From: Sulfidibacter corallicola
GTDB lineage: Bacteria > Acidobacteriota > Holophagae > Acanthopleuribacterales > Acanthopleuribacteraceae
DNA length: 64,000 nt
Assembly (NCBI RefSeq): GCF_017498545.1
Contig: NZ_CP071793.1
Coordinates: 1,674,001 to 1,738,000 of the forward strand
Direction of reading: 5' to 3'
The position numbers were made by a program, and so were the translations under genes. The notes beneath the pieces were generated by a model that worked only from the letters and a program-made list of their open reading frames with translations, was not told where the DNA came from and searched no databases. Position 1 is the stretch's first letter. Every line of letters starts with the position of its first letter. Shown here piece by piece: positions 2,261-63,841 of this stretch.

Positions 2261-2673
2261 GATGTGCTCCTGGGTTGATACTGCATGTGCAAGCGCTGGG
2301 GAGAACCCCGGTTTTCAGATGGGGTTGGCGGTGCCATTCGGGTGTTCGAGCCCTTGCCGATTAGTGGCCCATCTTACATGAGCGTGGCTGAAGGGTCGAG
2401 TTTTTCTTTGGTGGCCGGGAACGCCGCCCCGTTGGGCCTTCTGGGCCGCCAGGACCCTGGATCACGCCCTCGCAACGAGTCGGAACTCTTTGAGGTAGAC
2501 CGGTACCTGAGAGGGACGTGTCTCGTGGCGCATGTTCCCGTAAAATCATGTTTTCCCCCTTCTTTCATGGCAGCTTTTTCAATCCCCGTCCGGGCTTTTT
2601 GATGCTTTCTGCAAGACTTCCCTTCGCGCAGCTCTATTTCGTTCCGATAAGATGCTTCTGTGAGGTCTGCTCC
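2261..2673. promoter_or_regulatory. Divergent upstream region between fabH and the RHS gene
   Basis: About 410 bp separates the two divergent start codons and must hold both promoters. I see no convincing -35/-10 pair. The plus-strand frame of the RHS gene stays open back to 2518, but that stretch is not protein-like, and the signal peptide fixes the real start at 2674. Confidence 0.4.
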
Positions 2674-11600: not shown

Positions 11601-14600
11601 CGATGTCGGCAGGGTGCGCACCGCCTACGACGTCTTCGGGCGGGCCACCCGCGTCGAGAAACTCCCCGAGGACCCGGCCAAGGCCGACGAGGGCGAAGAC
11701 GGCGCCGAGCCCGCCCTCGTGATCACCTACGAAAAGGGCAAGATCACCGTGGCGGACGGGTTCAAGGACGTCACGACCGTGACGCGCTGGTCCGACCCGG
11801 CGGGGCAGACGGTAACCACCACGGTGTCCGGCAGCGGCGTCGACAAGGCGCGCGAAACCGAGACTGCCACCACGGTTGCCGGCAGCCCGCGACGGCTGCG
11901 CGTGGTGACCGAGGAGAAGAGCGAGGGCCACACGGTGACCACCACGGCCGAGGTCAACGGACGCGGCGCCGTGGTCAAGGCCGGCTCGGGCCCGATCGAG
12001 GTGACCGCCGACGCGTTCAACAGCGCGGGCATGCCGACCCAGATGACGGTCGCCTCGACGCTGGGCGGCGGCCAGGCGAAACGGGCCCAGGCGGCCACCT
12101 CCGTGGCCTTTACATACGACCGCTACAACCGCGTCACGGGCGGGACCAACGCCCACGGGCTGGACTGGTCGGTCGACGGCTACGACGGGCGCTGGCGGCC
12201 CACGGGCACGACCGACACCCGCGGCCTCGGCACCCAGCGCAGCTACGACGACTGGCAGGACACCCTGCGCGCGGTGACCACCACCGAGCCCAACCGTTCC
12301 GGCAACGAGACCCTGACCCTGTTCAGCCGCGAACGGGAGGGCCAGGCGGGCATGTCGCTGCTGACCGAACGCGCCACCTCCTGGCTGGGCGCGACCACCG
12401 AGGTCACGCGGCACATCGCCAACGCGTCGGCCGGGGTCGACGTCACCCGCAACGGCAAGACCATGCGGGTCCGGCGCGACGCCGAGACCGGCGAGGTCCG
12501 AACGGTCGACGACTTCGAGAGCAACCGCACCCAAGTCGATCCCGAGCGTTTCGGCCGCCGGGTCCGGGCGACGCTACCCGACGGCGCCGAGCGTGAGCTA
12601 GAGCTGAATGGCTTCGGCCAGCCGCGGGCGTTTCGCGACAACGGCGTGACTACGCGCGAGTGGGTGCGCGACGCGCTGGGCCGGGTCGACGAGGTCCGCA
12701 CGCCCGACCGGGTCTACGACTTCGCCTACAGCGCGGAGAGCCAGGGGCTGGCGTCGATCACGGGCGGCCGCCACGACCTGAACTTCAGCAACTGGAGCCC
12801 GTTGGGTCAGGCGCAGACCATCGAGATCGGCGACGTGGCGCGGATCGAGGTCCAATACCATCCGGGCGGCCGGCCGAGCTGCGCGACCCTGACCCGCAAG
12901 GGCGGACTGCCGACCCAGATGAACTACAACGCCCACGGCGACCTGGTGGGGCTCAAGCGGGGCAACCAGCCGCTGACCGAGTACAGCTACAACCGCTGGG
13001 GCGCGGTGGCGAGCATGACGGTGGGCAACGGCCAACCGCTGCAGGTCTTTGGCAGCGGCGACAGCGCGACCGTCAACCTGCCGGGCGGGGTCACGGCCGA
13101 CATCGACCCCGAGGGCCGGCTGTCACAGGTGACCTACCCGGGCCTGGCCACCAAGGAATACGGCTACGACGGCCTGGGCCGAACGACTCGGGTAACGATC
13201 GGCGGGGTCCTGCTGCGGCGTTACCAATACGGCCAGGGTCGGTTGGAACAGATCACAGCGGGCGAGCCGGGCAGCGAGGAAGTCTACGTCTATGGGTACG
13301 ACGCCGACGGCCGCCTGACGAGCCTGACGCGCGATGGCGTCGCCTGGGGAAGCTGGACCTACCCCGACCTGGCGGACCTGCGCCAACAGGAGGGACTGGC
13401 CGATCCCAACCGGATGCAGCGCTACACCGACCCCAATGGCGTGACCCAGTCGTACGGCTACGAGGACGGCCAGGTCACCCTGATCGACATCGCCCAAGGG
13501 CCGAGCTTCCAGATGGTCTACGACGCGGGCGGCAACCAGACCCAGATCCGCGCGATGGGCATGGAGGCGACCTTCACCGAGTGGGTCAACGGCATGCCGA
13601 CCCGGATCGCCTGGGGCGACGGCACCACCTTCGATTTGAGCCAGGACGAAAAGGGCCAGCTCGACACGATCACGGGTGATGGCGGAGTCTTCCTACTCGA
13701 CCTCAACTGGGAGGATGTCCCCCGCGAGGGCCTGTGCAGTGAAGCGGGCGAGGCGGGCCCACCGGACAAGAAGATCAGCAAGGTGACGCGCAAGGCGCCG
13801 GGCCTCGAAGAGACCTGGGAGCCCGCGTACACCGAGGCGCAGCAGCTCCAGTCGATCCAGATCACGCACACGGGCGGCCAGGGAACGGCCACCGTGACCG
13901 AGAGCTACGGCGAGGTGCGGAACCAGCTTCTGGGCGGCCTGACCCGGGTGTTGAACGGCACGGTGGTGCGCGACGATGTCTTCACCCACGACGCCACGGC
14001 CGACCACCGCCGGGTGGGCAGCGTGGCGGGCATGGGCGGGGTCGATGTCTATGCCTACGATCCGGTCCTGGGCAACCTGATGCGGATCGACACCCGCGAC
14101 GGCCGTGTGCGGGAGTTCGCGTGGGACGGCTTTCGGCGCCTGACCGAGATCCGCGAGGACGGCCAAGTTTTGGGTGCGTACGCCTACGACCACCAGAACC
14201 GCCGGATCCGGGCGGCGACGCCGGCGAGCGACGTGCCGTTGGTGTTCGCATGGCACGGCTCGCGGGTGATCGCGATCGGCCAGCAGCGTGGCACGGCGGA
14301 GACGCCGCGCATCGCGTGGACGCACGCCATCGGCCAGGGCCCGCTGGGCCCGGCCTTCCTGAAAGATCTCACGGGTGGTGGCCACGACTACTACATCGCG
14401 ACCGACCACCTGGGCACGCCCTACGCGTACAAGCACGTGGCCAGCGGGACGGTGTACCTCGGCCCGTTGACGCCTTGGGGCGAGCGGGTCCAAAGCCCAT
14501 CGCTGGGAGCACAGGCGGGTGTGGTACCGGACAGCGTCTTCGCCAGCGCCCCACTGGGCCTGGGCGGCCACCTGGTCGACTGGGAAACCGGCCTGACGCA

Positions 14601-49490: not shown

Positions 49491-50279
49491 CTACCGGCTC
49501 GCGCCGATGGGTTTGCCCGCTTCGTGAGCCGCGAGGATCGCTCTCATTTGGTCGAAACGCGGCAGGGTCTCCGGACCTGGCGGCAATGTCTCCGCGACCA
49601 GCCGGTGAAACTCGGGGTCCGCCTCTCGAAGCAGGTTCATGGCGTTGAAGCATCCCCATTTGGTGTAGATGTCCAGCTCCAGTTGAATGAATCGGTAGTC
49701 GATCAGCAATTGCAGGATCGTCATCATGCGCGGCCGATCCTCGGCCAACGCGGAGACGATGCGGCCGTCCTCCCCGACGAGGCCCTCCAGCTCTCGATCC
49801 AATCCGGCGCGCAGGATGCCGCCCGACTGCCGCCGCTTCCCGATCAGCTCCCAATTCTCGCGGACCATCTCGCCGATGTAGCCGTGTGGATCGTGAACGG
49901 GGCACAGGTTGGCGATGTAGCCCGTGAAGGTGCTGAAGAAACGCAGGACGTAGTGATCCAAGCGCTGCCTGAACTGGGGGGTCAGGCCCAGAACGTTGAT
50001 CTTGATGCCGTCCTTCACGAAGACGAACTGGTAGTTCCCGGCCAAGCCGGGATCCACCAGGAGGAAATCGATGTCGCTCTCCGGTCGGTGGCTCTTCTTG
50101 GCCACCGAACCGGTGATCCCGATCGAACCCTCGGGGAATCGGGCCCGCAACAGTTCGGCCAGTTCCTTGGCGAGGGCGAGGTGGCGATCGTCCGTTTCAT
50201 CCTCGAATACCACCCGATCGGGAATGCCGCGGGTCTGCTCCTGAAAGCTTCGGTGTCGTTGTTGCATTGCCGAGGTCAC
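49491..50279 (-). CDS. Nucleotidyltransferase-fold protein
   Basis: I choose the GTG at 50279, preceded by AGGGGG, giving 262 residues; an ATG four codons later lacks a ribosome site. The motif G57-S58 ... S-D69-I-D71-F (TGSVAKK followed by ESDIDFLLV) is the core of the nucleotidyltransferase fold, with two metal-binding Asp residues. The rest is helical and not recognised. It starts 11 bp after the LanC-like gene stop on the same strand, so it belongs to the peptide-product cluster. It could transfer a nucleotide to the product or to a protein, or act as an antitoxin-type enzyme. The fold is well supported and the substrate is unknown. Confidence 0.8.
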   Translation of the reverse strand: MTSAMQQRHRSFQEQTRGIPDRVVFEDETDDRHLALAKELAELLRARFPEGSIGITGSVAKKSHRPESDIDFLLVDPGLAGNYQFVFVKDGIKINVLGLTPQFRQRLDHYVLRFFSTFTGYIANLCPVHDPHGYIGEMVRENWELIGKRRQSGGILRAGLDRELEGLVGEDGRIVSALAEDRPRMMTILQLLIDYRFIQLELDIYTKWGCFNAMNLLREADPEFHRLVAETLPPGPETLPRFDQMRAILAAHEAGKPIGASR

Positions 50280-50290
50280 GGTGATTCCCC

Positions 50291-52504
50291 CTAAAAATGT
50301 GACACGAAATAGTCTTCGTTCTTGAAGAACCCGTAACCGACCCACGCGGCGATCTCTCGTGCCCGTTCACATTTAGTCTCGAAATCGCCTGCCGCCTGAA
50401 AGGCGTCGATCAGGGGTTCGAAAAAGTGAAATGCGTGGAGCTTACGTAGGTTTTCGGTCAACTGCAAGACCAGTCGTTCCAACTGAAAATGGCTCAGGGT
50501 TCGGTCGTCGAGTTCCAGGTCGCGGTGGATGCGCCCGGCATTTTTTCGCACCAACGCCTCGTAATGGCCGTAGGTCTGGTAACTGTTCCTTTCGGAAGTG
50601 ACCACGGCGAAACTTTCCACGTAATCCGCCAGATCCCGATGTCGGTTCAGCGCCAGGAGCCGCCGGCGATACATCGCCACGGCCAGGTTGCGAAAGGCGT
50701 CGAAGGAACGCGTCGACCCGCACCCGGCGAACAGCTCCGACGACCACCGGGCGGGCCGCTCGAATGCCAGGAGAAACAGCGCCTGTTCCCGGGACAAAGG
50801 TGCCCTGCAAATTCGGTTTCCATACGGGAACAGCAACTGGTAGTTGACCCTGGCCGGGGGCTGGGCGTCCGAGTCGGCCCAATCGTCCCAGTCGAATTGA
50901 CGTTCGACCACCTTGACCCCGGGCGCGAGGTAGAGTTCCGCGCCTTCCCAGTCGATATCCTCGGGATCCAACAGCGGTGTCATGCGGGCATAGGAGGCGG
51001 TGAAATCGGTCATGGCGGCCCACAGCGACCAGCGCGAGCGTTCGAGAAGGAAGGCGTCTTCCAGCAAGGTTCGACGTTGGCGATCCGGTTCGGCGTGAAC
51101 CCGTCGACAGAGTTGGGCATGGGCTTGGGAGGGGTTCTCGGGCGGGTTCGGCTCCTCATCGATGCCCAATCTGCGGAACGCCGTGCGCGTGGCCTCGAAA
51201 AAGCCGTCCCGATCCACGGCGAAGGCATCGGTCGCCCGCGGTGTTTGGGGAGGTTTGGGAGCCGTCCCAGGCATCAGGATCGACGGCACGTCGGAATCGC
51301 CCAGACGCAGCAAGCAGTAGCCCACACCGGCCAGACCGTACATCAACTCGGTGGTTGCGTGGGGAGAATCCGAGGGGCGACTCATGCTCGCGGCTACATG
51401 TCGGTCGACCGCGCGATGGACGCGACCGACCCAGGTGGGCTCGTCCAGAAGTTCCGCCGCCGCCAACACCACTTCGAGGATGCCGCCCCACTCCCTGGCC
51501 AAGGTCAGGGAAGGGTGTTCCGCGTCTTCCAGATGTGCCAGGTCTCGCAGGATGATCGGGCGTACGGGTTCCAACAGGTCCGTTCGGTTCAGGATCGCCG
51601 CGGCCCGCATGCGAACCAGGCAAATGCCGCTGGCTCCGAACAGCCAGGAATCGTTGAAGTTACCGCCGTATGGCTGCTGGCGTCTCAGATCCTGGTAATC
51701 GATCGGTTGGCCGTGGATTCGGGCCTGTACCAGGAGATCGAGCAGCAGGGGATCGCGCAAATCGACCCAGTTCCCCATGGCTTCGTCGTAGAACTGCGCC
51801 TCGTAGCGCAATCCCTCCTCGGCGGCACGTCGAAAGCGCGCGAACCCGGTTTCGGCATAAAGATCCAACAGCGCCATGACCACGCCACTCGATCCGTCCA
51901 ACCCCACTGGATGGCGCACGCAACAGGGATGGGTATCCCACGACCAGCCCAATGGCTCGCGACAGGCGAGGTCCAGAAGTCGGTCGCCCAGGCGGACCGC
52001 CAATTCCAGGTCGCGGTGTGGTGCACTCAGAAAAAAGGGGATCGCGGAGGTGAAGCCCGTCGCGTAACCGGGCTGCTCCAGGTTTCGAACGGGAATCCGC
52101 GCCGGATCCAGCGCGGTTTCCGCACGTGCGACCAGAGATGGATCGTCCAACAGAAGCGAGAGCCGGTGCGCGACCCAAAAAATGCCGGTGCGGCCGTTGT
52201 AAAAGCCGATCTGGGCCGCCGGCAGGTCATCGGCCAGGTCGATCGCGCGTTCGATCAGTTGCCGTGCCACCCTTCCGTAGGCATCGTCACCGGTTCGGCC
52301 GAAGGTTTCGCCGAACACCAGGGCGCAGCCTGCCAATCCTCGTTCGAGGGTGGGATCGATGCTTTGGAAAAAGACGGGATTCGATGAGGGGAAGGTGAAG
52401 GAATTGGGGGCAACATCGATGTCGCCCAAGATGAGTTTGCATATTTCGACGAGGCGAGCAAGTGAGCTATCGGTGAAGTTTTTTCGTGGTTTCTTGTTCA
52501 TCAA
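50291..52504 (-). CDS. LanC-like (lanthionine-cyclase-fold) protein without zinc ligands
   Basis: In this 737-residue protein, residues 1-420 show the repeated glycine motifs of the LanC alpha/alpha toroid: GLAGCALVFG (56-65), GRTGIFW (104-110), GLDGSSGVVMALL (201-213), SWLFGASGICL (286-296) and ELMYGLAGVGYCLL (386-399). In true cyclases the fourth motif reads WCxGxxG and the fifth CHGxAG, supplying Cys and Cys-His for zinc. Here these are replaced by Leu and by Met-Tyr, so normal lanthionine cyclisation is unlikely. Residues 430-737 are a separate helical domain I do not recognise. It is divergent from the radical SAM gene across an AT-rich gap. It may bind the peptide or have a new activity. 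Confidence 0.72.
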   Translation of the reverse strand: MMNKKPRKNFTDSSLARLVEICKLILGDIDVAPNSFTFPSSNPVFFQSIDPTLERGLAGCALVFGETFGRTGDDAYGRVARQLIERAIDLADDLPAAQIGFYNGRTGIFWVAHRLSLLLDDPSLVARAETALDPARIPVRNLEQPGYATGFTSAIPFFLSAPHRDLELAVRLGDRLLDLACREPLGWSWDTHPCCVRHPVGLDGSSGVVMALLDLYAETGFARFRRAAEEGLRYEAQFYDEAMGNWVDLRDPLLLDLLVQARIHGQPIDYQDLRRQQPYGGNFNDSWLFGASGICLVRMRAAAILNRTDLLEPVRPIILRDLAHLEDAEHPSLTLAREWGGILEVVLAAAELLDEPTWVGRVHRAVDRHVAASMSRPSDSPHATTELMYGLAGVGYCLLRLGDSDVPSILMPGTAPKPPQTPRATDAFAVDRDGFFEATRTAFRRLGIDEEPNPPENPSQAHAQLCRRVHAEPDRQRRTLLEDAFLLERSRWSLWAAMTDFTASYARMTPLLDPEDIDWEGAELYLAPGVKVVERQFDWDDWADSDAQPPARVNYQLLFPYGNRICRAPLSREQALFLLAFERPARWSSELFAGCGSTRSFDAFRNLAVAMYRRRLLALNRHRDLADYVESFAVVTSERNSYQTYGHYEALVRKNAGRIHRDLELDDRTLSHFQLERLVLQLTENLRKLHAFHFFEPLIDAFQAAGDFETKCERAREIAAWVGYGFFKNEDYFVSHF

Positions 52505-52794
52505 TGTTCCCCTATAAGATCATGTTAACTTGTTTTGAGCATCGAGTGATAGCTTGTGATTTTTCATGTTGAATGGTAAAAACAGATGGCCTATAATTTT
52601 CAAATCCGCCCTGTATGTGTCTGCAGCTATTGATCTAGATGTTTTTCAGTGTCTATTTTTTGATGTTCGTGTGTGTTTTTAGATATTTGCTCGCCCAGCT
52701 AGCCAACCCCACACCGTCAACCATTTGTGTTGAATAAATGTCGCTGTACGCTTTTTAATAAATATGGCGATTGACTTTATTAGGAGAATAATTG
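52505..52794. promoter_or_regulatory. AT-rich divergent promoter region of the peptide cluster
   Basis: About 290 bp between the LanC-like gene (minus) and the radical SAM gene (plus) is far AT-richer than the window, with T-runs and TATAAT-like words (for example GCCTATAATTTTC near 52590). It should hold the promoters for both arms of the cluster. AGGAGA at 52782-52787 is the ribosome site for the GTG at 52795. Confidence 0.6.
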
Positions 52795-54288
52795 GTGCGA
52801 ACCTCCAATTACACTATCTATGTCGATTTACCCGATGATCCCGAAAATGTGTTGCTCGTTCATGGCTATACCGGTGCCTATGACCGCGTTTCCAAAAAAG
52901 TGGCGAACTTCGTGCGGTCCATCGAAAGCCGAAAACCCTTCAAGCCCCTCTATGGTTCCTGGTCGCCCGAACCGGTGGTGGACGAAGCGCAGCATCTCGA
53001 TGACGAGCATGTAAAAGTCTTGATGAAAAGAGGTTATCTCACTTCGAAGTCCGAAGAGGAGGAAGCGCACTTTTTCGAGAAGATTACCGACAACCTCCAC
53101 CACTTCAAATCGCGCAAGATGCCCGACTACGTCATCATGCCCACCTACAGTTGCAACCTGCGCTGTCATTATTGCTTTCAGGATCACATGCGCACGGATC
53201 CCAAGTTGAAGCCCCTGCTCCGCGTGATGAGCAAGGCGATGGTCGACCGCATTTTGGGCGCGTTGCCCGAATTCGAACAGATGCACGGCTTGGAGCCCGA
53301 CAGCGGCCTGTCCCGCAATTTCATCTTGTTCGGTGGCGAGCCGCTGCTGGCGGAAAGTCGCGATTCGGTGGCGTACCTGATGGCGCGGGGGGCGGAAATC
53401 GGACCCTTGCGGGTCCGCGCCATTTCCAACTGCACCGACCTGCATCACTACCGGGACCTGCTGGGGCCGGGGAAGATCGACACCATTCAGGTCACCCTGG
53501 ACGGCCCTTCCTTCGAGCACGACAAGCGCCGTATTTACGCGGATGGATCGGGTTCCTGGGAACGCATCGCCGAAAACATCGGCATGGCCCTGGCGTTGAA
53601 GGTCAACATCAGTGCCCGCATGAACGTCGATCGCGACAACATCTACAAACTGCCCCAACTCGCCAAGGAGTTCGTCAAGTACGGTTGGGTGGAGAGCCCG
53701 CATTTCTCTTCCTATGTGGCGCCGATTCATCCTTCCAACGACAAGACCGACAAAAAGGCTTGTCTGAATTCCTACAAGGTGGATCTGGCGATCAAGGAAC
53801 TGCGCACCCAATTCGAGGAGATGAAGTACATCGGCAGTCCCAGCGACGGGCTGCACCATCAGGTCATGAGCATGCTGGCGGGGAAACACAGCGGGCCCAA
53901 TCTCAAAACCAGCTTTTGCGGCGCCCATACCAGTATGTATGTGCTCGATGCCTTCGGCGACATCTACACCTGTTGGGAACGGACCGGTGACAAGAAACAC
54001 CGGGTCGGGTACATCAACGCGGACCACAGCCTGACGTTCGAGGACGAGCGTTTGAAGATGTGGCGGGATCGGACGGTGGTCACCAACCCCACCTGTAAAA
54101 AGTGTCGCTTCGCCTTCTATTGCGGTGGCGGGTGCGCGGTCCTGGCCCAGAACGCCACCGGCAACTACTACACGAACTATTGCGACGGTTTTCAAAATCG
54201 GTTTCGGGCGACGGTCGCCGAAGCCTTCGTGGACTTCAAGGGTGCGCGCGACCCGGCCAAGGTCGATGCACCCATGTGCGAAGTCTGA
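52795..54288 (+). CDS. Radical SAM/SPASM peptide-modifying enzyme
   Basis: I start at the GTG at 52795, seven bases after AGGAGA; a TTG one codon earlier is too close. The protein has 497 residues. The radical SAM cluster is C120-N-L-R-C124-H-Y-C127. A GGEPLL motif follows for SAM binding. The SPASM region near the C-terminus has CGAHTSMYVLD, DIYTCWE, CKKCRFAFYCGGGCAVLAQ and a final YCDGF, enough Cys for two auxiliary clusters. Residues 1-100 may hold a PqqD-like peptide-recognition domain. The family modifies ribosomal peptides, often making thioether (sactionine or ranthionine) or C-C links. The Cys-rich precursors directly downstream are the obvious substrates. Confidence 0.93.
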   Translation: MRTSNYTIYVDLPDDPENVLLVHGYTGAYDRVSKKVANFVRSIESRKPFKPLYGSWSPEPVVDEAQHLDDEHVKVLMKRGYLTSKSEEEEAHFFEKITDNLHHFKSRKMPDYVIMPTYSCNLRCHYCFQDHMRTDPKLKPLLRVMSKAMVDRILGALPEFEQMHGLEPDSGLSRNFILFGGEPLLAESRDSVAYLMARGAEIGPLRVRAISNCTDLHHYRDLLGPGKIDTIQVTLDGPSFEHDKRRIYADGSGSWERIAENIGMALALKVNISARMNVDRDNIYKLPQLAKEFVKYGWVESPHFSSYVAPIHPSNDKTDKKACLNSYKVDLAIKELRTQFEEMKYIGSPSDGLHHQVMSMLAGKHSGPNLKTSFCGAHTSMYVLDAFGDIYTCWERTGDKKHRVGYINADHSLTFEDERLKMWRDRTVVTNPTCKKCRFAFYCGGGCAVLAQNATGNYYTNYCDGFQNRFRATVAEAFVDFKGARDPAKVDAPMCEV

Positions 54289-54632
54289 CCACCGCGCGAA
54301 AACTCCAGAAATCGTCGAAACGTGCTGTTGATCGAGCACCTTTCGAGCCTATCCGTCGACTCCCGTGACCTGTTTCCACGTTGGGGAGCCTGCCATCAAT
54401 CCTGTCACGGGCCGTTTCGCGGCCCGTGTACGGACCCCTATCCATTCCGTCCTTCTCCGCGAGTCGGCGCGCACGCGATGTTTCCGCGCCCGTGGCGGCC
54501 CGTCGCTCGTCCGGGTTTCTCGGTCCGGGCGTCGCGTGGGCCTCGCATTTGGGTCCGGTCGGGTGTGCGGCGATCGGCTGGCTGGCGGAGTGGGCGCCTC
54601 ATACATCAAAGTCACCATTCAAGGATTTTTCT
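54289..54632. other. Gap with a strong hairpin between radical SAM gene and first precursor gene
   Basis: About 340 bp without a gene. At 54406-54428 a perfect 9-bp stem (CACGGGCCG paired with CGGCCCGTG) closes a 5-base loop. It is not followed by Ts, so it is not a normal intrinsic terminator. It may slow transcription or stabilise the precursor mRNA end, so that peptide and enzyme amounts differ. AGGA lies about eight bases before the precursor ATG. Confidence 0.5.
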
Positions 54633-54875
54633 ATGGAAAAGAAAGATAAGGAATTGGAAATCGAGAGCCTCAATCTGGATGAATTGGACGTGGAGGAGCT
54701 GGAACGCCGTTTGGAAATGTCTTCGGCCCTCGGCTCCATCTCGACCGCGGCCCTGTGGTGCGGAACCGATTGCGGCGTCAATTGCGGGGTGGACGACTGC
54801 TCCTGCTTCGGCAATGCGGTGATCTGTACCGTGGATGTCTGCGATACCGATTACGTCGATCCCTCGTCGAGCTGA
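54633..54875 (+). CDS. Cys-rich ribosomal precursor peptide 1
   Basis: This 80-residue peptide has an acidic helical leader (residues 1 to about 34) with LDELDVEELERRLEMSSALG. The likely core holds seven Cys at 43, 47, 51, 56, 58, 65 and 70, spaced by small and acidic residues (WCGTDCGVNCG, DDCSC) and ending in DYVDPSSS. Leader plus Cys-rich core beside a radical SAM/SPASM enzyme is the pattern of a RiPP precursor. Peptide 2 has the same leader and the same Cys spacing. There is no Gly-Gly site, so cleavage may follow the Ala-Leu-Gly/Ser-rich junction, possibly by the M50 protease encoded downstream. An odd number of Cys implies that not all are paired. Confidence 0.88.
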   Translation: MEKKDKELEIESLNLDELDVEELERRLEMSSALGSISTAALWCGTDCGVNCGVDDCSCFGNAVICTVDVCDTDYVDPSSS

Positions 54876-55313
54876 TTCGCGACGATCGAACGACCCGCTT
54901 GCGTCTTCCCTTTTTCCACACATCGAAACCCTTCGGGAAGTGTCCTTCCCGAGCGAATCCGCCAGTGGATCGGTTCGGAACGCGCGTGCCTGAACGGACG
55001 GCCTTCGGTTCGGGCGCCTCGTTCGAAGAGACGAGATGGTTCCGCGATGAGCTGGATGGCGATTCGATGGGCGCGAAAACCACGCATGCCGCAATCCTTT
55101 CGAACCGACCGAATCCCCGGTGATTTCGATCAGGTTCACCACGCCGCCAGATGGGCGAACGGGTGTGACCCCTGCCAGGGGGCCCGAACCGGGGAAGGAG
55201 GACGGGTACGGGATACGGGGGCCGCGCGTCCCCGTTTCGAGCGCCGCGCGCACGGTTCCACCAGGATCCACACTCCGCCAGCACCTCTTCAACTTCATTC
55301 ACTAGGACGTCAC
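54876..55313. other. Non-coding gap between the two precursor genes
   Basis: About 440 bp. No open frame looks like a protein and I see no third precursor copy. There is no clear terminator. TAGGACG lies seven bases before the second precursor ATG. The unusual length suggests a second promoter or RNA signal for precursor 2. Confidence 0.45.
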
Positions 55314-55553
55314 ATGGAGAAAAAAAAGGAATTGGAAATCGAGAATCTCAACATGGACGATCTGGACGTCGAGGAACTCGAGCGTCGTCTGGAAATGTCT
55401 TCGGCCCTTGGCACCGTGACCACCGCAGCCCTTTGGTGCGGTGCGGATTGCGGCAACCTCTGCGGCGTGGACGACTGCAGTTGCCTCGGCAACGCCGTGG
55501 TCTGCACCGTGGATATCTGCGATTCGGACTACGTCGATCCGTCGAGTAGCTGA
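55314..55553 (+). CDS. Cys-rich ribosomal precursor peptide 2
   Basis: This 79-residue peptide is a close paralogue of peptide 1. The segment EELERRLEMSSALG is identical and the seven Cys (42, 46, 50, 55, 57, 64, 69) keep the same spacing. Changes are conservative (TDCGVN to ADCGNL, CSCF to CSCL, CTVDVC to CTVDIC), and the tail SDYVDPSSS is almost the same. This shows selection on the core, not only on the leader. Both peptides probably yield closely related products, or the two halves of a two-part product. The isoprenoid-synthase gene begins 106 bp downstream. Confidence 0.88.
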   Translation: MEKKKELEIENLNMDDLDVEELERRLEMSSALGTVTTAALWCGADCGNLCGVDDCSCLGNAVVCTVDICDSDYVDPSSS

Positions 55554-55659
55554 TCCATCACTCGGACACGGGAGCGAGTTCCGTTCTCGTGTCTTTTCCG
55601 CGATCCGGTACCGCTCCCGTCGGGAGCCTGCCGGGGGAGCGCATGCAAAGGACCTCGCC

Positions 55660-57744
55660 GTGGATGAAAAGAACCCCGACTCGAACAGCCCGCTTGCGAA
55701 GCTATCCCGTGACATCGACCTGTTGAACGCCGCATTGGCCCCGGCCAGGGCGCGCTGGTCCCAACGGTTCGATTTCGACGAGATCGCCTACGATTCCTAT
55801 TACAGTTGCCATCCGCTCGTCTTTCGGGAGGCCTTTCCCGAGGCGAACGAGGAACGGGTCCACCTCCTGACCCTCGCCTGCCACCATTTGGCCCGGGCCG
55901 CCTGCTATGCGGACGACGTGATGGACGAAGCCCAGGGACCCCACTCGCCGACCCGATTCCTGATGAACCTGCACGCCCATCACTTCGAGTGCTACCAACA
56001 TTTTTTCAAGCTCTTCGAGGTGGGTCATCGCTTTTGGGAGAAATTTCACACCTGCTACGCCGCCTACACGGAAGCGTGCCTGACCGAAGCCGATTTCGTA
56101 CTCGGCAAGCGCTCCTGGTCGGATTTCGACGAGGTCACCGGTCGGCGCGTCATCGTCGATTACCTGGGCATGTCCCACATCGGGATCTGGGGATTGGCGG
56201 CGCTCACGGACCGCGAGGCGACGGCCGAAGCGGTGGTGGCCTCGGAACGGGCCTACCATCTGGCCCGCCAGCTTTGGGACGACCTGTGTGATTGGAAGCT
56301 GGACCTACAGCGCGGTTTTCCGACGATCCTGCTGAAAAGGGTCCTGCCCGAACAGCCCACCTGGCAGGACAAACGCGAACTGCAACGCCTGGTACACCGA
56401 CTCGCCGGGAAGATCTACTACCAGGGTTACGCCGAAACGGCGATGTTGGAAATCCTGGCCTACCTGGACCAGGCCGAAACGGCCCTCGGCGCTTTGACCG
56501 TGCCGGTCTGGCGCGGGCTGATTCAAAAACTGCGCGGTGAGTGCACCCGGTTGCGGCGCGATATGAACCAACTGATCCAAACCAACGTGGACCGCTCCAA
56601 GGAAACCAAGGCATTCGATTTCGTGTTGGCCCCGCCGAGGAATCCGCTCGACCACATGATTCAGGCGGCCGCCACGTTCGTGGTCGGCCAATGGCAAAAG
56701 GGTTTGGGCGAAGTGCGCCACATCATGCTCCTGGCCGACGATGGCGACGCATCCCGCGGGGAGTCCTATCGTCACGGCGATGTGTTTCAGCGGGCCCTGA
56801 TCGCCGATGCCCTGCAGGACGCCGATCGGATTTTGGACGGCGGCCTGAAACCGGTCATCGACGAGGAAGTCGTGTACCTTCTTTCACAGAGGCAAACCGA
56901 GGGCATGGGCGGCTGGAAATACGTGCCCGACATGGCGGAACTCCCGCCCGATACCGCCAACCTCGCCCAAATGATCCTGGTCCTGGTCGGCGCCGGTCGA
57001 CGGGACGAGGTCGATCGACTGTGTCGACCCCTGATCGAGGTTCTCTTGCGCGACAACACCCGCGAGGACGGCGGCATCGAGACCTGGATCGTACCGGCTG
57101 GAGCGGATCTTTCGAAACAGGCGGATCGGCGCTGGCTCGACGCCTTCAAAGGGGGCGCCGGACCCGACGTCGAGATCGTGGCCAACATGGCCTACGCGCT
57201 TCTGCATTACGATCCCGAACACTACGAAGAACCCATCCGCAAGGCCGCACATTTTCTGGAAGGGCGCATCGAAGAGGCGGGCTGCTGGCGTTCGCCTTGG
57301 TGTTTCGGTCCCTTCTTTCCCACCTACTTGGCGCTCCGGCTGTTGACGCGGGTCCAGCCCCAATCTCCGGCGATCCTCGAGGCGAGGGACTTCCTGTTGG
57401 CGCGCCAACAGGAGGACGGGAGCTGGGGCCAGGGCGGGAAAAACGATCCGCTCGCCACCGCCCACGCGTTGCTCGCCCTCCGGGAACTCGAGGATGATGT
57501 GGCGCCGGAGCTGCTGCACACGCGGGTCCGGAACGGCCTGCGGGCGCTTTCGCGGACCCGTCGCTCCCAAAGCGGTTGGCCGGCGGTCCATTTCATCAAG
57601 TCCCGGTTTCAGCATCCCTACTCCAGCCAAACCGTCACCACGGCATTCGCCCTCAAGGCCGCCTCCGTCTGGCAGGCCTACTCCATGGACCACGACCAGG
57701 TGGTTTCCGGAAAGTGGCGGGCCGCGAAGGGAGAACATCGATGA
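55660..57744 (+). CDS. Class I isoprenoid-synthase domain fused to a squalene-cyclase-like barrel
   Basis: I start at the GTG at 55660, preceded by AGGA; the frame runs further upstream only through the precursor gene. The protein has 694 residues. Residues 1 to about 310 are helical with two Asp-rich motifs: D85-D-V-M-D-E90 and D207-D-L-C-D-W-K-L-D215, the pattern of prenyl-diphosphate and class I terpene synthases binding diphosphate through magnesium. Residues about 330-680 resemble the alpha/alpha barrels of prenyltransferase and squalene-hopene cyclases, with a QW-like QQEDGSWG and GGWKYVP. The class II acid motif DxDD appears as PPDTA, with one Asp kept, so protonation-type cyclisation is doubtful. 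Its substrate could be a prenyl diphosphate, the peptide, or both. Confidence 0.8.
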   Translation: MDEKNPDSNSPLAKLSRDIDLLNAALAPARARWSQRFDFDEIAYDSYYSCHPLVFREAFPEANEERVHLLTLACHHLARAACYADDVMDEAQGPHSPTRFLMNLHAHHFECYQHFFKLFEVGHRFWEKFHTCYAAYTEACLTEADFVLGKRSWSDFDEVTGRRVIVDYLGMSHIGIWGLAALTDREATAEAVVASERAYHLARQLWDDLCDWKLDLQRGFPTILLKRVLPEQPTWQDKRELQRLVHRLAGKIYYQGYAETAMLEILAYLDQAETALGALTVPVWRGLIQKLRGECTRLRRDMNQLIQTNVDRSKETKAFDFVLAPPRNPLDHMIQAAATFVVGQWQKGLGEVRHIMLLADDGDASRGESYRHGDVFQRALIADALQDADRILDGGLKPVIDEEVVYLLSQRQTEGMGGWKYVPDMAELPPDTANLAQMILVLVGAGRRDEVDRLCRPLIEVLLRDNTREDGGIETWIVPAGADLSKQADRRWLDAFKGGAGPDVEIVANMAYALLHYDPEHYEEPIRKAAHFLEGRIEEAGCWRSPWCFGPFFPTYLALRLLTRVQPQSPAILEARDFLLARQQEDGSWGQGGKNDPLATAHALLALRELEDDVAPELLHTRVRNGLRALSRTRRSQSGWPAVHFIKSRFQHPYSSQTVTTAFALKAASVWQAYSMDHDQVVSGKWRAAKGEHR

Positions 57745-58931
57745 AGGTACTGTTGACGACACCCGGAACACCGGGCTTCCTGTTTCCGACGATCGGCATC
57801 GCGCGGGCACTGGTGGCCAAAGGGCACGAAGTGGCGTTCGCCACCAGCCAAACGGCGGGCGACCTGCTGCGAAGTGCAGGTCTGGAACGCATTCCCCGCA
57901 CCGAAAAAGACGGACACAGCTTCGAAATCTTCAATTGGTTCCATCCGACCGCGATCGGGCTCCAACTCAAACACATCCACTACGCCACCAAGCACTTCGG
58001 GCCGGATCTGTTGTTGGGGCATCCGCTGACCATGGGCACCTACCTGGCCGCCGAGCTGCTCGATTTGCCGCTCGCCGTGATCGGCTCCCCCAATTTCCTG
58101 TGGCCCGTGGCGGGTGATCGCGACCCCGAATCGATTCGGCGCCGTAAATGGCGCTGGCGGGACTTTCTCAAGTACTACAACCTGGCGCGTCAGGCGCTGG
58201 GCATCGATCGGGTCGATGTGTCCCAGGGCAACCCGTTCCTCGGCGATCTGTATTTGATGCGCAGCCTGGCCGAGGTGGAGCCGGAAGCGGCTCACTTTCC
58301 CGAGAAGGTGAAACTAGTCGGTGATTGCTTGTGGGAACCGCCCGAGACCAGCCGTGCCGTGGGCCGGCTGCTGCGGGAAGCCGAGGAAACGGGAAGGGAA
58401 CTGTGGTTCGTGCAGGTCGGCCGGTCGTTTCAACGGACGTCCTATTTCCACTCCTTGGTGGCGATCGCCGAACGCAGGCATTGGCTGTTGGTGCTGTGCC
58501 GCGACCGCATGGATTTGGACCTCGACGGACTGCCGGAAAACATGCGCGTGTTCGATCACCTCCCGTTGGGTCAGCTCGCGCCCAGGCTGGGCGGCATGAT
58601 CGCGGTGGGCGGGCCGACGGCCGTGCTGAGCGGATGGCGTCACGGCGTGCCCATGCTGATCATTCCAGGCGGCTCGGAGCAATGGGACAGCGCCGATCAC
58701 GTGGTCGACGCCGGTGTGGGCACCTCGCTCGTGCCCGAGGAAGTGACGCCCGACTTGTTGCTGCGCACCGTGGAGGAGCTGGCGGCGGACGAGGGGATTC
58801 GCCGTCGTTGCGGCGAAGTGTCCCAGGTGTTTCGAGCCTTCGACGGTCACCGCTGCGTGGCCGATCACCTGGAAAACTGGGCCGATGAACGCTTGGGCAT
58901 CGGTCAAATGGGCTATTCTGGAGTCAAATGA
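57741..58931 (+). CDS. GT1-family (UGT/GT-B fold) glycosyltransferase
   Basis: This 396-residue protein starts in an ATGA overlap with the isoprenoid-synthase stop, so the two are coupled. The start MKVLLTTPGTPGFLFPTIGIARAL is the N-terminal Rossmann strand and helix of macrolide/UGT-type glycosyltransferases. The C-terminal donor-binding region has the family layout (FDHLPLGQLAPRL, AVGGPTAVLSGWRHGVPMLI, GGSEQWDSADHV), though the usual HGG of the motif reads VGG. Such enzymes add a sugar to hydrophobic natural products, including terpenoids. Here the acceptor may be the prenyl group or the modified peptide. The assignment is strong at family level. Confidence 0.9.
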   Translation: MKVLLTTPGTPGFLFPTIGIARALVAKGHEVAFATSQTAGDLLRSAGLERIPRTEKDGHSFEIFNWFHPTAIGLQLKHIHYATKHFGPDLLLGHPLTMGTYLAAELLDLPLAVIGSPNFLWPVAGDRDPESIRRRKWRWRDFLKYYNLARQALGIDRVDVSQGNPFLGDLYLMRSLAEVEPEAAHFPEKVKLVGDCLWEPPETSRAVGRLLREAEETGRELWFVQVGRSFQRTSYFHSLVAIAERRHWLLVLCRDRMDLDLDGLPENMRVFDHLPLGQLAPRLGGMIAVGGPTAVLSGWRHGVPMLIIPGGSEQWDSADHVVDAGVGTSLVPEEVTPDLLLRTVEELAADEGIRRRCGEVSQVFRAFDGHRCVADHLENWADERLGIGQMGYSGVK

Positions 58932-58941
58932 GGAAGGCCAC

Positions 58942-60210
58942 ATGATGGAAGCCAGCCGGCTGGAGTTCGATTCGGACCAGCCCATCGACAGCGCGGAGCG
59001 AAAGCGATCCTACCTGGTCAAGACGCCGGGCGGGAAATACCTCAAGGTGACACCTTCCGCCTACGAACTGCTCCAGTTGGCGCAGGAACACACGGATTAC
59101 GGCAAGATCGCGGGTTGCCTGACGACCAAGTCCGGCGAGCCGGTGACCGCCGAATGGGTGGAGAAGGCCTACAACCACCTGATGGAAAAAATCGACCGCA
59201 TCGAGAAGAAGGACAGCACCATCCGCAAGGGATTCTGGATTCGGCAGGAAATCCTGCCCGCCTCCTGGGTCAACCTGATGTCGGCACCCATGACCCTGGC
59301 CTTCAGCGCCACGGCGGCCTGGACGTCCCTGGCGCTGCTGGTCGTCACCTTCTTCGTTTCGCGGTCGACCTGGTCCACCTGGACGCTGGACCTGAGCTTC
59401 GCCAACCTCGCCTGGGGTTACGTGCTGTTGCTGGTTTCCCTGATCATGCACGAGTTCGGGCACGCCAGCGCCTGTCTTCGCTACGGCGCGGCGCCCAGCG
59501 GGATCGGCATCGGGGTCTACATGGTGTATCCCGTCTTCTACAGCGATGTCACCTCGGCCTGGTCGCTGAAGCGCTGGCAGCGGGGCGTGGTCGATCTGGG
59601 CGGGATGTACTTTCAGACTGTCTGCGGCTGCCTGTACCTGCTCCTGTTCTCGGCCACCGGCCTGCAGCCCTTTCTGATCGGCGCCATCCTGATCGGCAGC
59701 AACCTCATGTTCTCGCTCAATCCCGTGTTTCGGTTCGATGGCTACTGGGTCATTTCCGATTTTCTGGGGATACCCAACCTGAGCCAACAGAAGGAGCGGG
59801 TCGCCAAATTCGTGTTCGACTACTTGCGCGGCAAGCCGGTGGAGCCGTTGCCCTGGTCGCGGGGGCTCTCCATCTTCATGATCGCCTACAGCCTGGTGGG
59901 CTACCTCTTCTATGCCCTGTTTTTCTTCGTGATTCTGCCGCGCCATTTGGACCGCATCCTGGACTACCCCACCATCGCCGGCGACTTTTTCCGGAAACTG
60001 TTTCATCCGGACCAGATGCCCACCCAACCCGAGGTCATGACGTTCCTCGGCACCAGTTTCGGCGTCTTTTTGGCTGGATTCCTGTTGTGGCGATTCGGCA
60101 GTGCCTGGGTGCTCAAGGGTTGGCACGCCCTGCGTTCTTCCAAGCTGTTCGGCGCAGGACGAAACCGGCAAGGTGTCCCGAGCGGGCTGTCCCGCGAATC
60201 GAAGAAGTAG
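58942..60210 (+). CDS. PqqD-like/M50 membrane metalloprotease, likely leader protease
   Basis: The ATG at 58942 (or 58945) follows AGGAAGG, giving 422 residues. Residues about 20-90 look like a PqqD-type winged-helix domain, which binds RiPP leaders. At least four hydrophobic segments follow. The zinc site is HEFGH (170-174) in a membrane segment, with the third ligand in N260-PVFRFDGYW (Asp266). This is the M50 (site-2 protease) plan seen in other peptide-maturation clusters. A leader-binding domain and an intramembrane protease fused together suggest removal of the precursor leader at the membrane, possibly with export. No ABC transporter gene is visible nearby. Confidence 0.88.
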   Translation: MMEASRLEFDSDQPIDSAERKRSYLVKTPGGKYLKVTPSAYELLQLAQEHTDYGKIAGCLTTKSGEPVTAEWVEKAYNHLMEKIDRIEKKDSTIRKGFWIRQEILPASWVNLMSAPMTLAFSATAAWTSLALLVVTFFVSRSTWSTWTLDLSFANLAWGYVLLLVSLIMHEFGHASACLRYGAAPSGIGIGVYMVYPVFYSDVTSAWSLKRWQRGVVDLGGMYFQTVCGCLYLLLFSATGLQPFLIGAILIGSNLMFSLNPVFRFDGYWVISDFLGIPNLSQQKERVAKFVFDYLRGKPVEPLPWSRGLSIFMIAYSLVGYLFYALFFFVILPRHLDRILDYPTIAGDFFRKLFHPDQMPTQPEVMTFLGTSFGVFLAGFLLWRFGSAWVLKGWHALRSSKLFGAGRNRQGVPSGLSRESKK

Positions 60211-61805: not shown

Positions 61806-63632
61806 TCAATCACAGGCGGCCCAGCTCGATATGGCGCGCAACAGATCGACTTGATCCACCGAACCGCTCGCGTTCAAATCGCCGGCACAGGGAACGGGAC
61901 AGTCGCCGGTTTCATTGACGAGGGTGGCGAAGTCCAACACGCTGGTTCTTAGATCCATATCGATATCGGCTCCGCACCAAGTTTCGTTTGCGGGACGAAA
62001 CGTGTTGAATCGAAACGCCTTACTGATCGCAATCCCACCCGGAGCGGCTGGGTCCGAAACGTACCAGCGACCATAATAGGGACCGTTCGATGGACTGGCG
62101 CTTGGGTCGATCGTCAAGTTTACCGAAGCGTAACCCTGACCCTCGCCGGTACCCTGAAGGGTAACTTCGCGACGGGCGAAACCCGCTTGGGCGGGGATTT
62201 GCGCGGTCACGCCCGGATCCTGGTCGTCGACAACCAGGACGGCGGCGGCGCCGCCAAGTCCCTGGGCAATCGCGACCGTAAAGTTGTCACTGCCGGCGAT
62301 GGGTGGCTCCAATGCGATCGGTCTCGGTTCGAATCCGCCGGAGCCGGCCAACCCGATGCCTTCGATTTGGGGGACCCGGTCCGATTGGCTGTATAGGATG
62401 ACTGGATCGAACGGGGCCGAACCGGCTTCGACCCGTGGATCGATCAAGGGACGCTTCAGGAAGGCGATCAGTGCGGCCCGCTCTTCCGCGGTCACGTTGT
62501 TGCGCGGTCGAATGAACCCGGGCTTGTTCGGTGCGTCGAAATCACCGCCACGCAGGTAGAAATCGACGACGTCTTCGAGGGTTTCGAAGCGACCGGTATG
62601 GAAATAAGGTGGTCGCAGGGCTACATTGCGCAGGCTAGGGGTGCGAAACTCGCCCAAATGATCGGGGTTCCCGGTTTCGCCAAATCGGCCGACATCTTCA
62701 TCCGGAGGACGAATACCGATGAAGCGAAAGCCGTTGTCGGTGAGTGGCCCGCCCTCGTGGCATGCGTGACAGTTGTTTTCCACGAACACCTCCAGGCCCA
62801 GTTGTTCCTGGGCGGTAAGCGGGGTGCCGCCCCGTAGGGCCACGTCCAGCGGGGTCTGGTCGGAGTACAGAATACGTTCATAGGTAGCGATGGCCATGGC
62901 GATGCGCGCGGAGGTCACTTCGGCGGTGCCGAAGGCTTCCGAGAAGAGTTCCGGATAGGTGCGGTCGCCGATCCATGAATGCAAGGCGGCTGGCACGGCT
63001 TCTGCCAACGCCAACGGTCGGGCCGCGGCAATCCGCGTCACCACCTCGCCCCATTCACGGTTGACGTGACCCATTTCCACATCGCTTACCGGAGGGCCCA
63101 TGACCTGATTTTCCAGGGCGCCATTGCCCCGGATGAGGACTCTGCCGGTATCCGGATCGAAGAACCGGTTCCCGGCCCGTCCGTCCCAGAACAGGCTGTT
63201 GGCGTATGCGACATCGATGGACGGTGGTGTTTTTCGACCGGTGACTTGGGGTTCGCAACCGAAATGGGTGATGGTTCCGTAGGTCCCGTCGTCGAAGTGG
63301 AGCGAGACCCCGAGTGAGCCCACGACGTCGTCCTCGGTGCCCAAAAGATTGTCGGCGCCAGGATGGAAGGGTTTCGGAACGTCGCCGATCAGACGGGGAT
63401 CGCAGCCACCCGCGGAGGGCAGGTGACAGGTTCCGCAGGCAACGGTTCCGTTGGAAGAGAGTTGTTCATCCCAAAACAGGGCTTTACCCAAATAGGCCTT
63501 GGCCGGCGTAACCGGGTTTTCCTCGGGTTGGGGTGGGGGTGACAGGGGTGCGGGGGGCTCGTTCACGACTTGAGCCCCGAGAAACGATACACAGACATTG
63601 AAAAGGAACAAAAACGAAACGGCTCGATGCAT
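61806..63632 (-). CDS. Secreted di-haem cytochrome c peroxidase (MauG/CcpA-like) with dockerin-like tail
   Basis: I use the ATG at 63632, which opens a signal peptide (MHRAVSFLFLFNVCVSFLGA) and follows GGAG, giving 607 residues. Two haem-binding motifs mark the family: CGTCH (C66-C69-H70) and CHACH near 287. The N-terminal two thirds (to about 440) matches di-haem peroxidases, which reduce hydrogen peroxide or oxidise a partner outside the cytoplasmic membrane. An extra ~120-residue beta-rich region follows, and the last ~55 residues (DLNASGSVDQVDLL and an earlier DIDMDLRTSVLDF) resemble two dockerin-type calcium loops. The tail is unusual for this enzyme and may attach it to an extracellular surface. 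It stands alone on its strand. Confidence 0.9.
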   Translation of the reverse strand: MHRAVSFLFLFNVCVSFLGAQVVNEPPAPLSPPPQPEENPVTPAKAYLGKALFWDEQLSSNGTVACGTCHLPSAGGCDPRLIGDVPKPFHPGADNLLGTEDDVVGSLGVSLHFDDGTYGTITHFGCEPQVTGRKTPPSIDVAYANSLFWDGRAGNRFFDPDTGRVLIRGNGALENQVMGPPVSDVEMGHVNREWGEVVTRIAAARPLALAEAVPAALHSWIGDRTYPELFSEAFGTAEVTSARIAMAIATYERILYSDQTPLDVALRGGTPLTAQEQLGLEVFVENNCHACHEGGPLTDNGFRFIGIRPPDEDVGRFGETGNPDHLGEFRTPSLRNVALRPPYFHTGRFETLEDVVDFYLRGGDFDAPNKPGFIRPRNNVTAEERAALIAFLKRPLIDPRVEAGSAPFDPVILYSQSDRVPQIEGIGLAGSGGFEPRPIALEPPIAGSDNFTVAIAQGLGGAAAVLVVDDQDPGVTAQIPAQAGFARREVTLQGTGEGQGYASVNLTIDPSASPSNGPYYGRWYVSDPAAPGGIAISKAFRFNTFRPANETWCGADIDMDLRTSVLDFATLVNETGDCPVPCAGDLNASGSVDQVDLLRAISSWAACD

Positions 63633-63841
63633 ACAAGGACACTCCAAAGGAAAAAATGCCTTTCTTCCATGGCAGATCACCAAACACGGGATTTGGTTGA
63701 AACGAGAAATGTATCGATGGGCACATTCAACCAAGATTTCCCCGTAACCGACGTGACCGGAAACAAAAAAGCGTATCTTTCAGGAATATTTCGCCCGCGA
63801 GGGTCGAGACACTTGCGCGTCCGAAATCCTGTGTTTCGCGT

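Follow-up and report, generated by a model that had tools for sequence, protein, structure and literature searches.

The stretch analyzed here, referred to as the window, comprises 64,000 nucleotides of Sulfidibacter corallicola DNA (positions 1,674,001-1,738,000 in a single-contig genome of 11.79 Mb). A sequence-only reading had recognized eight genes at 49491-60210 and had proposed a hybrid pathway in which a ribosomally synthesized and post-translationally modified peptide (RiPP) receives isoprenoid and sugar groups. All eight genes were found at their reported places among the open reading frames (ORFs) of the window (Table 1). They encode a radical S-adenosylmethionine (rSAM)/SPASM maturase, two precursor peptides, a prenyltransferase-cyclase fusion (TC), a GT1-type glycosyltransferase, a PqqD-like RiPP recognition element (RRE) fused to an M50 metalloprotease, a LanC-like protein and a nucleotidyltransferase. 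Judged from sequence comparison, the region between 52.8 and 60.2 kb is likely a RiPP cluster of a widespread radical-SAM family, with predicted cross-linking, prenylation, glycosylation and leader-cleavage steps.

Table 1. Genes of the candidate cluster and of the adjoining minus-strand pair (positions in the window).
Feature	Position	Strand	Remarks
Radical SAM/SPASM maturase	52792..54288	+	498 aa; CNLRCHYC cluster motif; Radical_SAM 1.9e-11, SPASM TIGR04085
Precursor peptide A1	54633..54875	+	80 aa; leader EIESLNLDELDVEELERRLEM; core ..LWCGTDCGVNCGVDDCSCFGNAVICTVDVCDTDYVDPSSS
Precursor peptide A2	55314..55553	+	79 aa; 82% identical to A1
TC (prenyltransferase-cyclase fusion)	55660..57744	+	trans-prenyl-synthase-like and class II cyclase-like domains
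GT1-type glycosyltransferase, EryCIII/MGT-like	57741..58931	+	EryCIII-like_C/MGT matches
PqqD-like RRE fused to M50 intramembrane metalloprotease	58942..60210	+	HEFGH, NPVFRFDGYW; NF041824 2e-29
LanC-like protein	50291..52501	-	736 aa; without zinc ligands; C-terminal extension; divergent
Minimal nucleotidyltransferase-like protein (GSVAKKSHRPESDID)	49491..50279	-	NTP_transf_2 5.6e-6

The gene set proposed from the letters alone, twin Cys-rich precursors included, is confirmed. The SPASM domain of the maturase scores 56.2 bits against NCBIfam model TIGR04085 (cut-off 27), and the barrel of TC matches Pfam SQHop_cyclase_C at 1.5e-7. The N-terminal domain of TC has no Pfam match; its identity came from a family profile and the predicted fold. 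The PqqD and M50 parts score under the Pfam cut-offs, and the match of the RRE-M50 protein to the daptide intramembrane protease model NF041824 (102.9 bits) lies under the cut-off of 300. The coupled starts noted earlier hold for some of the genes. TC begins with a GTG codon preceded by AGGA, the GT1 ATG at 57741 overlaps the TC stop codon, and the M50 ATG at 58942 lies 10 bp past GT1 (an earlier ATG at 58885 would overlap GT1); on the minus strand, the nucleotidyltransferase start at 50279 is 11 bp from the LanC-like stop. Gaps of 344 bp and 438 bp precede the two precursors, so only part of the cluster is coupled.

The core of this gene set recurs in other genomes. A single, non-exhaustive scan of an 84,980-species collection with an rSAM alignment, seeded by two short peptide patterns, provided 47 rSAM loci, several of them short contigs, with homologues 42-56% identical to the window's enzyme. 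Addition of a locus from genome G068 gives a set of 48, and that of a Gemmatirosa locus a set of 49. G068, which belongs to another family of the window's phylum, carries the one further full-length TC (2.9e-105) that a TC alignment retrieved among 396 genomes of that phylum. Its order is rSAM-A-A-TC-M50-GT1, where A is a precursor, and its rSAM, TC, GT1 and M50 proteins are 48%, 32%, 34% and 35% identical to those of the window. Fifty-eight of the 60 genomes of the phylum that match the TC profile match the barrel only; these are probably squalene-hopene cyclases and were excluded from the TC count. A narrower search of 60 relatives found no further TC. At a threshold of at least 100 bits, TC is present in 15, GT1 in 18 and M50 in 18 of the 48 loci. 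The TC scores of L053 and L068 are low (136 and 156 bits), and L057 and L068 have the TC N-domain alone, before M50.

The four enzymes rSAM, TC, GT1 and M50 occur together in six loci (L027, L030, L046, L048, L052 and L071), all with precursors, the L071 set being spread over both strands. These loci support the hybrid pathway and contradict the pattern that the sequence-only reading had named as its refutation, an isoprenoid synthase and a glycosyltransferase never found with the rSAM gene and precursors. Locus L030, which lies in Acidobacteriota, has the order rSAM-A-TC-GT1-M50, which is that of the window but with a single precursor, and it is the window's sister in the rSAM tree (support 94/94, slightly below the tool's star threshold; the tree was calculated without L048, L056, L063-L065 and the weakly scoring L075). 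Because it recurs in other genomes, the core set lies beyond chance, and the combination of rSAM, twin precursors, TC, GT1 and RRE-M50 is conserved. An obligate pairing of TC with GT1 was ruled out, as GT1 is found in 7 of the 15 TC loci (Fisher p=0.52, 48 loci).

TC-bearing loci span Acidobacteriota, Chloroflexota, Myxococcota, Actinomycetota and Cyanobacteriota; L053, in Vulcanimicrobiota, is partial. On the rSAM tree, the TC label changes 9 times against a shuffled mean of 12.6 (10 of 500 shuffles are as low), which indicates that TC was gained or lost often. As a control, genomes were also searched with the TC profile instead of rSAM. Among 195 Myxococcota genomes four contain TC, one of them (G410, the genome of L046) inside an rSAM cluster. 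Six of 301 Chloroflexota genomes match, four with a full-length TC and two with the barrel only; the full-length copies of G411, G702 and G710 lie beside rSAM, and that of G879 is locus L111. Of 386 genomes in the phylum to which Nostoc carneum belongs, 5 match, all mainly in the barrel. Since G411, G702 and G710 were already represented by L072, L048 and L047, respectively, this search adds L114 alone, which shares its genome with L072 and holds rSAM, six precursors, TC and M50. TC usually belongs to an rSAM cluster, though not in every case. On a Gemmatirosa megaplasmid (L004:7509-11185) TC adjoins M50; the locus also has a small PEP-CTERM-like ORF with a leader-like ESLEERIEF motif, and no rSAM match in 18.7 kb. 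The second Ktedonosporobacter TC match (L072:12710-14907) has three internal stops, and an open copy lies upstream at 4667-6802.

The precursor leaders follow the profile E(I)xSLNxxDLDVEELExRLELA, and those of the window exhibit an EIESLN box followed by ELERRLEM. This profile finds precursors in every TC or M50 locus of the 48 except L053 (the L044 match is weak, E=0.22), and it also matches ORFs in about 20 related loci. An ELE-type leader is present in 18 of 18 M50 loci (16 by regular expression, L030 and L055 by profile), and M50 in none of the 17 loci with a GG-type leader (p=3e-5), seven of which have a C39-type transporter as identified by a simple signature. Three ELE loci without M50 (L043, L047 and L059) end at a contig boundary. 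An EIxSLN-like box stands ahead of the GG motif in 8 of the 17 GG-leader loci (L029, L031-L034, L041, L056 and L066). Because these loci of the same rSAM family share the box, it is likely the rSAM recognition site, which suggests that EIxSLN may serve the rSAM enzyme and the second leader half the protease. The HExxH motif is kept in 19 of 19 M50 homologues listed, and RRE-M50 is the predicted leader peptidase, with ELERRLEM as its likely recognition or cleavage element. In the available portion of the daptide paper, an RRE-fused site-2 protease is likewise paired with an ELExMEAP leader, and the available portion of a second paper lists M50 proteases for the epipeptide and pearlin pathways. 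In the Microcystis locus L039 (11584-13706), rSAM, precursor and M50 are kept, TC is a barrel remnant in the M50 frame, and the core is without Trp or Tyr.

The two domains of TC were assigned from profiles and predicted folds. The N-terminal domain (residues ~8-346) contains D85xxxD89 and Q204xxD207D208LxD211. All 12 PDB matches of its profile (E up to 1) are trans-prenyl synthases, the polyprenyl synthetase 4lob at 1.6e-6 among them, and its model, with a mean predicted local distance difference test score of 89.8, matches mainly trans-prenyl synthases, the top matches included; the prenyltransferase Ord1 ranks 29. Residues D85, D89, D207, D208, D211 and D215 are invariant in 14 aligned N-domains (an alignment without L004, L027, L048, L053 and the second TC of L071), and the Gln upstream of the second Asp motif, Q204 in the window, is near-invariant. 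In profile searches the class II cyclase-like domain (residues ~370-680) resembles squalene-hopene cyclase as well as single-domain class II cyclases, and in Foldseek its fold matches 8pak (3.4e-12) and MstE (1.1e-9). The isoprenoid synthase part named in the sequence-only reading is confirmed by the N-domain profile and fold. The LPPDADDLAQ segment of the relatives aligns with PADADSTAN of 8pak, and the window reads PPDTANLAQ, so that DxDD is replaced by D431-T-A-N. DxDD is found as DADD or DLDD in 10 of 16 long TC sequences and as variants in the others; the motif region is missing in L046, and the cyclase domain is absent in L057 and L068. With DxDD lost, the prenyl group of the window product is probably linear and would stay acyclic. 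Class II cyclase ORFs were also read in L116-L119; those of L116, L118 and L119 have a long N-terminal part of isoprenoid-synthase-like appearance, and those of L117-L119 adjoin membrane-receptor or histidine-kinase-like ORFs; the L116-L119 type of locus could be ComQ/ComP-type signalling with a cyclized prenyl group.

Fused prenyltransferase-cyclase maturases of peptides, ChrPC and NctPC, were presumably first described by Hubrich et al., Chem 2024, 10, 3224, a reference of PMC12715784. According to the available portion of PMC13290415, ChrPC (trans-isoprenyl-diphosphate-synthase-like, trans-IDS-like) and NctPC (ABBA) prenylate Trp and cyclize the chain; ChrPC acts on an internal Trp, a Gln shortly before the second Asp motif is named as a feature of its kind, and Ord1 acts on free Trp. 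According to PDB titles, MstE was crystallized with prenylated dihydroxybenzoates. The cluster may be another member of the published peptide-terpenoid group, its combination with rSAM perhaps already reported, a reading compatible with the one preferred here and favored by the shared architecture of ChrPC and TC. It is a possibility of lesser weight, since the available text of PMC13290415 ties ChrPC and NctPC to no radical SAM chemistry, such a gene set appears in no title or abstract start among the matches listed for RiPP/terpenoid or rSAM/glycosyl combinations, and the window TC is without the cyclase DxDD. The earlier statement that no described RiPP class has this set is too strong for the terpenoid part, because fused prenyltransferase-cyclase maturases are already described there. 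Peptide-terpenoid fusion enzymes are known; among the literature matches listed, none shows one coupled to this rSAM family together with RRE-M50 and GT1.

The spacing of the core cysteines bears on the rSAM chemistry. Statistics were obtained for 41 cores with 166 Cys+3 positions against a null of shuffled non-Cys residues; the cores were made non-redundant by their last 25 residues only, and include L036, L066, L074 and the fragment L046:7243-7689. Asn or Asp occupies Cys+3 in 81 of 166 cases (shuffled mean 27.7; 0 of 2000 shuffles reach 81). Gly is found there in 0 of 166 (shuffled mean 23.3; 0 of 5000 shuffles at zero), Pro likewise in 0 of 166, and Phe, Tyr or Trp in 33; Leu, Ala and Lys also occur. 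The 41 cores show no Asn/Asp excess at Cys+1, +2, +4 or +5, and the CX3D motif of the PapA type is not enriched, Cys+4 being Asn or Asp in 14 of 165 cases, under the shuffled mean of 20.8. The L030 core reads CGAD-CGTN-CVGN-CPGN-CVGN-CATN-CVAN-CVAN-CGID, and that of the window precursor A1 CGTD-CGVN-CGVD-..CFGN-..CTVD-.CDTD. A general CX2(N/D) rule fails in GG-leader precursors; in GG-type cores Asn, Asp, Phe, Tyr, Trp, Lys and His together account for 27 Cys+3 positions vs 11.9 (0 of 3000 shuffles), with Gly at 1 of 39 (mean 4.7) and Pro at 1 of 39. The partner position at Cys+3 is constrained and its identity varies by subfamily. This constraint points to Cys-X2-X cross-links, presumably thioether rings made by the rSAM enzyme.

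The nearest NCBIfam models of the window rSAM are TIGR04463 (118 bits), PapB (115 bits) and CefB (114 bits). Ten relatives reach at most 134 bits with PapB, 132 with TIGR04463 and 136 with CefB, so that the best scores of the 11 proteins lie at 113-136 bits and miss the cut-offs of PapB (NF047865, 340), CefB (600) and TIGR04463 (525). To judge by these 11 of 49 proteins, the rSAM family is without a model of its own in NCBIfam release 20.0. Products other than side-chain thioethers, namely alpha-carbon thioethers as in sactipeptides, C-C or C-O cross-links, or epimers, would accord with scores under the cut-off of every maturase model listed and with Phe, Tyr, Leu, Ala and Lys among the Cys+3 residues. 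Such products are unlikely, as all 11 proteins score best with PapB (ranthipeptide), CefB or TIGR04463, and PapB, in the available portion of PMC9413430, joins Cys to Asp or Glu in CX3D and also accepts CXnD spacings from n=0 to n=6. The absence of Gly at Cys+3 also argues for side-chain chemistry. Among the side observations on this rSAM family, the cyanobacterial locus L040 (9234-13848) has a tryptophan-halogenase-like ORF, as read from the ORF, which makes an rSAM-modified peptide with halogenated Trp possible in loci of this type. Long GG-leader peptides in L038, L040 and L042 all end in FYYG..(S)CSQW. In the Rhodospirillales locus L069 (11541-11933), an ORF adjoining rSAM repeats GCVVKW/GCVVNW several times and may be another kind of multi-core precursor handled by this family.

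A candidate prenyl acceptor was defined post hoc as a Trp or Tyr no more than two residues away from the first core Cys. The comparison ignores phylogeny and was made without the near-identical L048 and L063-L065 and without L053 (TC-like pieces, no precursor found); its ELE rows are without the fragment L046:7243-7689 and the weak L033, L035, L036, L066 and L074, with L033 and L066 counted as GG. Such a residue is present in 14 of 16 TC loci vs 4 of 21 others (p=4.7e-5), L072 passing through one of its six precursors, and in ELE-leader loci only, in 14 of 16 with TC vs 1 of 7 without (p=0.0017). The association is weaker for Trp alone (10 of 16 vs 4 of 21, p=0.015) and not significant for a Trp at any core position (12 of 16 vs 9 of 21, p=0.09). 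Both window cores have Trp before the first Cys (LW-CGTD and LW-CGAD). A free-standing terpene synthase, whose product never touches the peptide and whose position is coincidental or regulatory, would explain the orphan TC genes of three Myxococcota genomes and the class II terpene cyclase fold of the C-domain. It is improbable, however, given that TC sits between the precursors and M50/GT1 in most TC loci across five phyla, that an aromatic residue next to the first Cys goes with TC, and that the Microcystis core, next to a mere TC remnant, is free of Trp and Tyr.

The LanC-like protein and the nucleotidyltransferase are found in none of the 49 related loci (phmmer E<1e-3; several are short contigs), which probably places them outside the conserved machinery. 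Thus, of the eight-gene set originally proposed, rSAM, precursors, TC, GT1 and M50 recur, and these two genes are probably peripheral and dispensable in the cluster. The LanC-like protein matches Pfam LANC_like at 2.9e-20 and reads SWLFGASGI and LTLAREWGG where two relatives, both in genome G216 and 31% and 28% identical, read AWCHG.PGI and YSLCHG.AG. We take the zinc ligands to lie within AWCHG and SLCHG; a LanC fold without zinc ligands, as first proposed, agrees with the SWLFG and TLARE readings. Of 297 genomes searched in the window's phylum, 9 have a LanC-like match, the window's own included. In G216, which has no match to the window's rSAM family, the LanC relatives adjoin a LanB-C-like or a Cys-rich ORF, as judged from ORF reading. 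A lanthipeptide pathway in which the LanC-like protein cyclizes dehydrated residues finds a basis in the LANC_like match and in the lanthipeptide-like (class I) reading of the loci of its best relatives, but is highly improbable with the zinc-ligand positions lost, no LanB/LanM-type dehydratase among the eight genes (the LanM model match covers the LanC-like cyclase part only) and LanC-like proteins in 0 of 49 related loci. A core role for this gene pair was rejected on the last count and on the lanthipeptide-like loci of the relatives; plasmid LanC matches, a Thiodictyon squalene-repeat match and the gene names FlmE/OhkG led nowhere. In the genus of G068, locus L087 (193-2829) encodes a LanC whose zinc ligands are intact; the Cys-rich ORF of 106 aa that comes after it may be a lanthipeptide precursor.

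Elsewhere in the window, a plus-strand open frame of 4445 codons (2374-15855) occupies a stretch of ~70% GC, clearly above the ~60% of the rest, with large frames on the other strand as well. The minus-strand gene at 61806-63734 encodes what we take to be a cytochrome-c-peroxidase-like protein with a dockerin-like C-terminal tail.

We infer the chemical steps and their order from these patterns. The rSAM/SPASM enzyme would recognize the EIESLN leader box and join each core Cys to the side chain at +3 (C-X2-N/D), generating a chain of small thioether rings. The prenyltransferase domain of TC would bind an allylic diphosphate through its two Asp motifs and prenylate the aromatic residue beside the first Cys, a Trp in A1 and A2 alike. 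Cyclization of the prenyl chain by the fused class II domain would follow in most relatives, which have DxDD; with DTAN in its place, the window enzyme probably leaves the prenyl group acyclic. GT1 may add a sugar, and the membrane-embedded M50 protease may remove the leader, perhaps together with export. The LanC-like protein and the nucleotidyltransferase would be dispensable for the pathway. The outline of the product originally envisaged, a putatively thioether-bridged peptide predicted to carry a prenyl or terpenoid group and a sugar, is retained.

Several observations weigh against this pathway. The related loci are non-independent and the Fisher values ignore phylogeny. The Myxococcota loci L106-L108 carry an orphan TC with no rSAM, M50 or leader within ~9 kb, and L111 combines TC, M50 and a precursor with no rSAM in 15 kb; hence TC is not obligately tied to rSAM. 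The EIxSLN box is absent in 9 of the 17 GG-leader loci, and 15 GG-type cores show no Asn/Asp enrichment at Cys+3 (8 vs 6.5 expected). Loss of DxDD makes the window TC atypical, the orientation of its two domains is uncertain in the model (predicted template modeling score 0.67), and the second TC of L071, which is outside the 14-sequence alignment, lacks the first Asp of motif 1. The residue beside the first Cys is Tyr rather than Trp in G068, L030 and L046, and in L068 and L071 neither is found there, while the characterized trans-IDS-like peptide prenyltransferases are Trp-specific in the available portion of PMC13290415.

Tentatively, and with somewhat less than even confidence, the family may constitute a RiPP class of its own. 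It would be defined jointly by tandem Cys-X2-(Asn/Asp/Tyr/Phe) cross-links, trans-IDS-like prenylation of the Trp or Tyr adjoining the first cross-linked Cys, whether or not a class II cyclase is active, a GT1 sugar, and a second leader half exchanged with the protease (ELExRLELA with RRE-M50, GG with C39), EIxSLN often being kept. Such a pathway would join radical-SAM Cys cross-linking with isoprenoid attachment (and cyclization) on ribosomal peptides and with glycosylation, which are unlinked in the available portions of the literature. Members with a Tyr acceptor, if real, would be exceptions to the Trp specificity of the known trans-IDS-like peptide prenyltransferases. The occurrence in several phyla and the short, alignable precursors provide a testable C-X2-X rule, a predicted acceptor and a modular leader/protease swap, and the family includes natural members whose cyclase domain is intact, degenerate or missing.

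Among known systems, ChrPC, compared by description only, is like TC in that, in the available text, an N-terminal trans-IDS-like prenyltransferase is fused to an MstE-like class II cyclase, with a Gln upstream of the second Asp motif and a Trp in the core. Unlike ChrPC, TC stands beside rSAM/SPASM, GT1 and RRE-M50, the window copy has lost its cyclase motif, and some relatives have Tyr for Trp. MstE and the single-domain class II cyclases (6sbc, 8pak and 8paj) share the fold and the DxDD-type motif with TC C-domains; the TC domain, in contrast, is fused behind a prenyltransferase domain and is without the motif in the window. The LanC proteins of the lanthipeptide-like loci in G216 are homologous to the 50291-52501 protein, which differs in its missing zinc ligands, in having no neighboring LanB/LanM and in lying away from the related clusters. 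Daptides (MpaP) resemble the cluster in their RRE-fused intramembrane site-2 protease and in the likeness of ELExMEAP to ELExRLELA. In contrast to daptides, both window precursors end in DPSSS with no C-terminal Thr, none of the eight genes matches daptide decarboxylase, aminotransferase or methyltransferase models, and M50 reaches 103 of 300 bits on NF041824. The ranthipeptides (PapB/freyrasin and CefB) have the nearest rSAM/SPASM families and likewise pair Cys with an acidic or amide partner at fixed spacing in many repeats, whereas the cluster has CX2(N/D/Y/F) rather than CX3D, an rSAM enzyme far under the family cut-offs, and predicted isoprenoid, sugar and M50 steps in addition.

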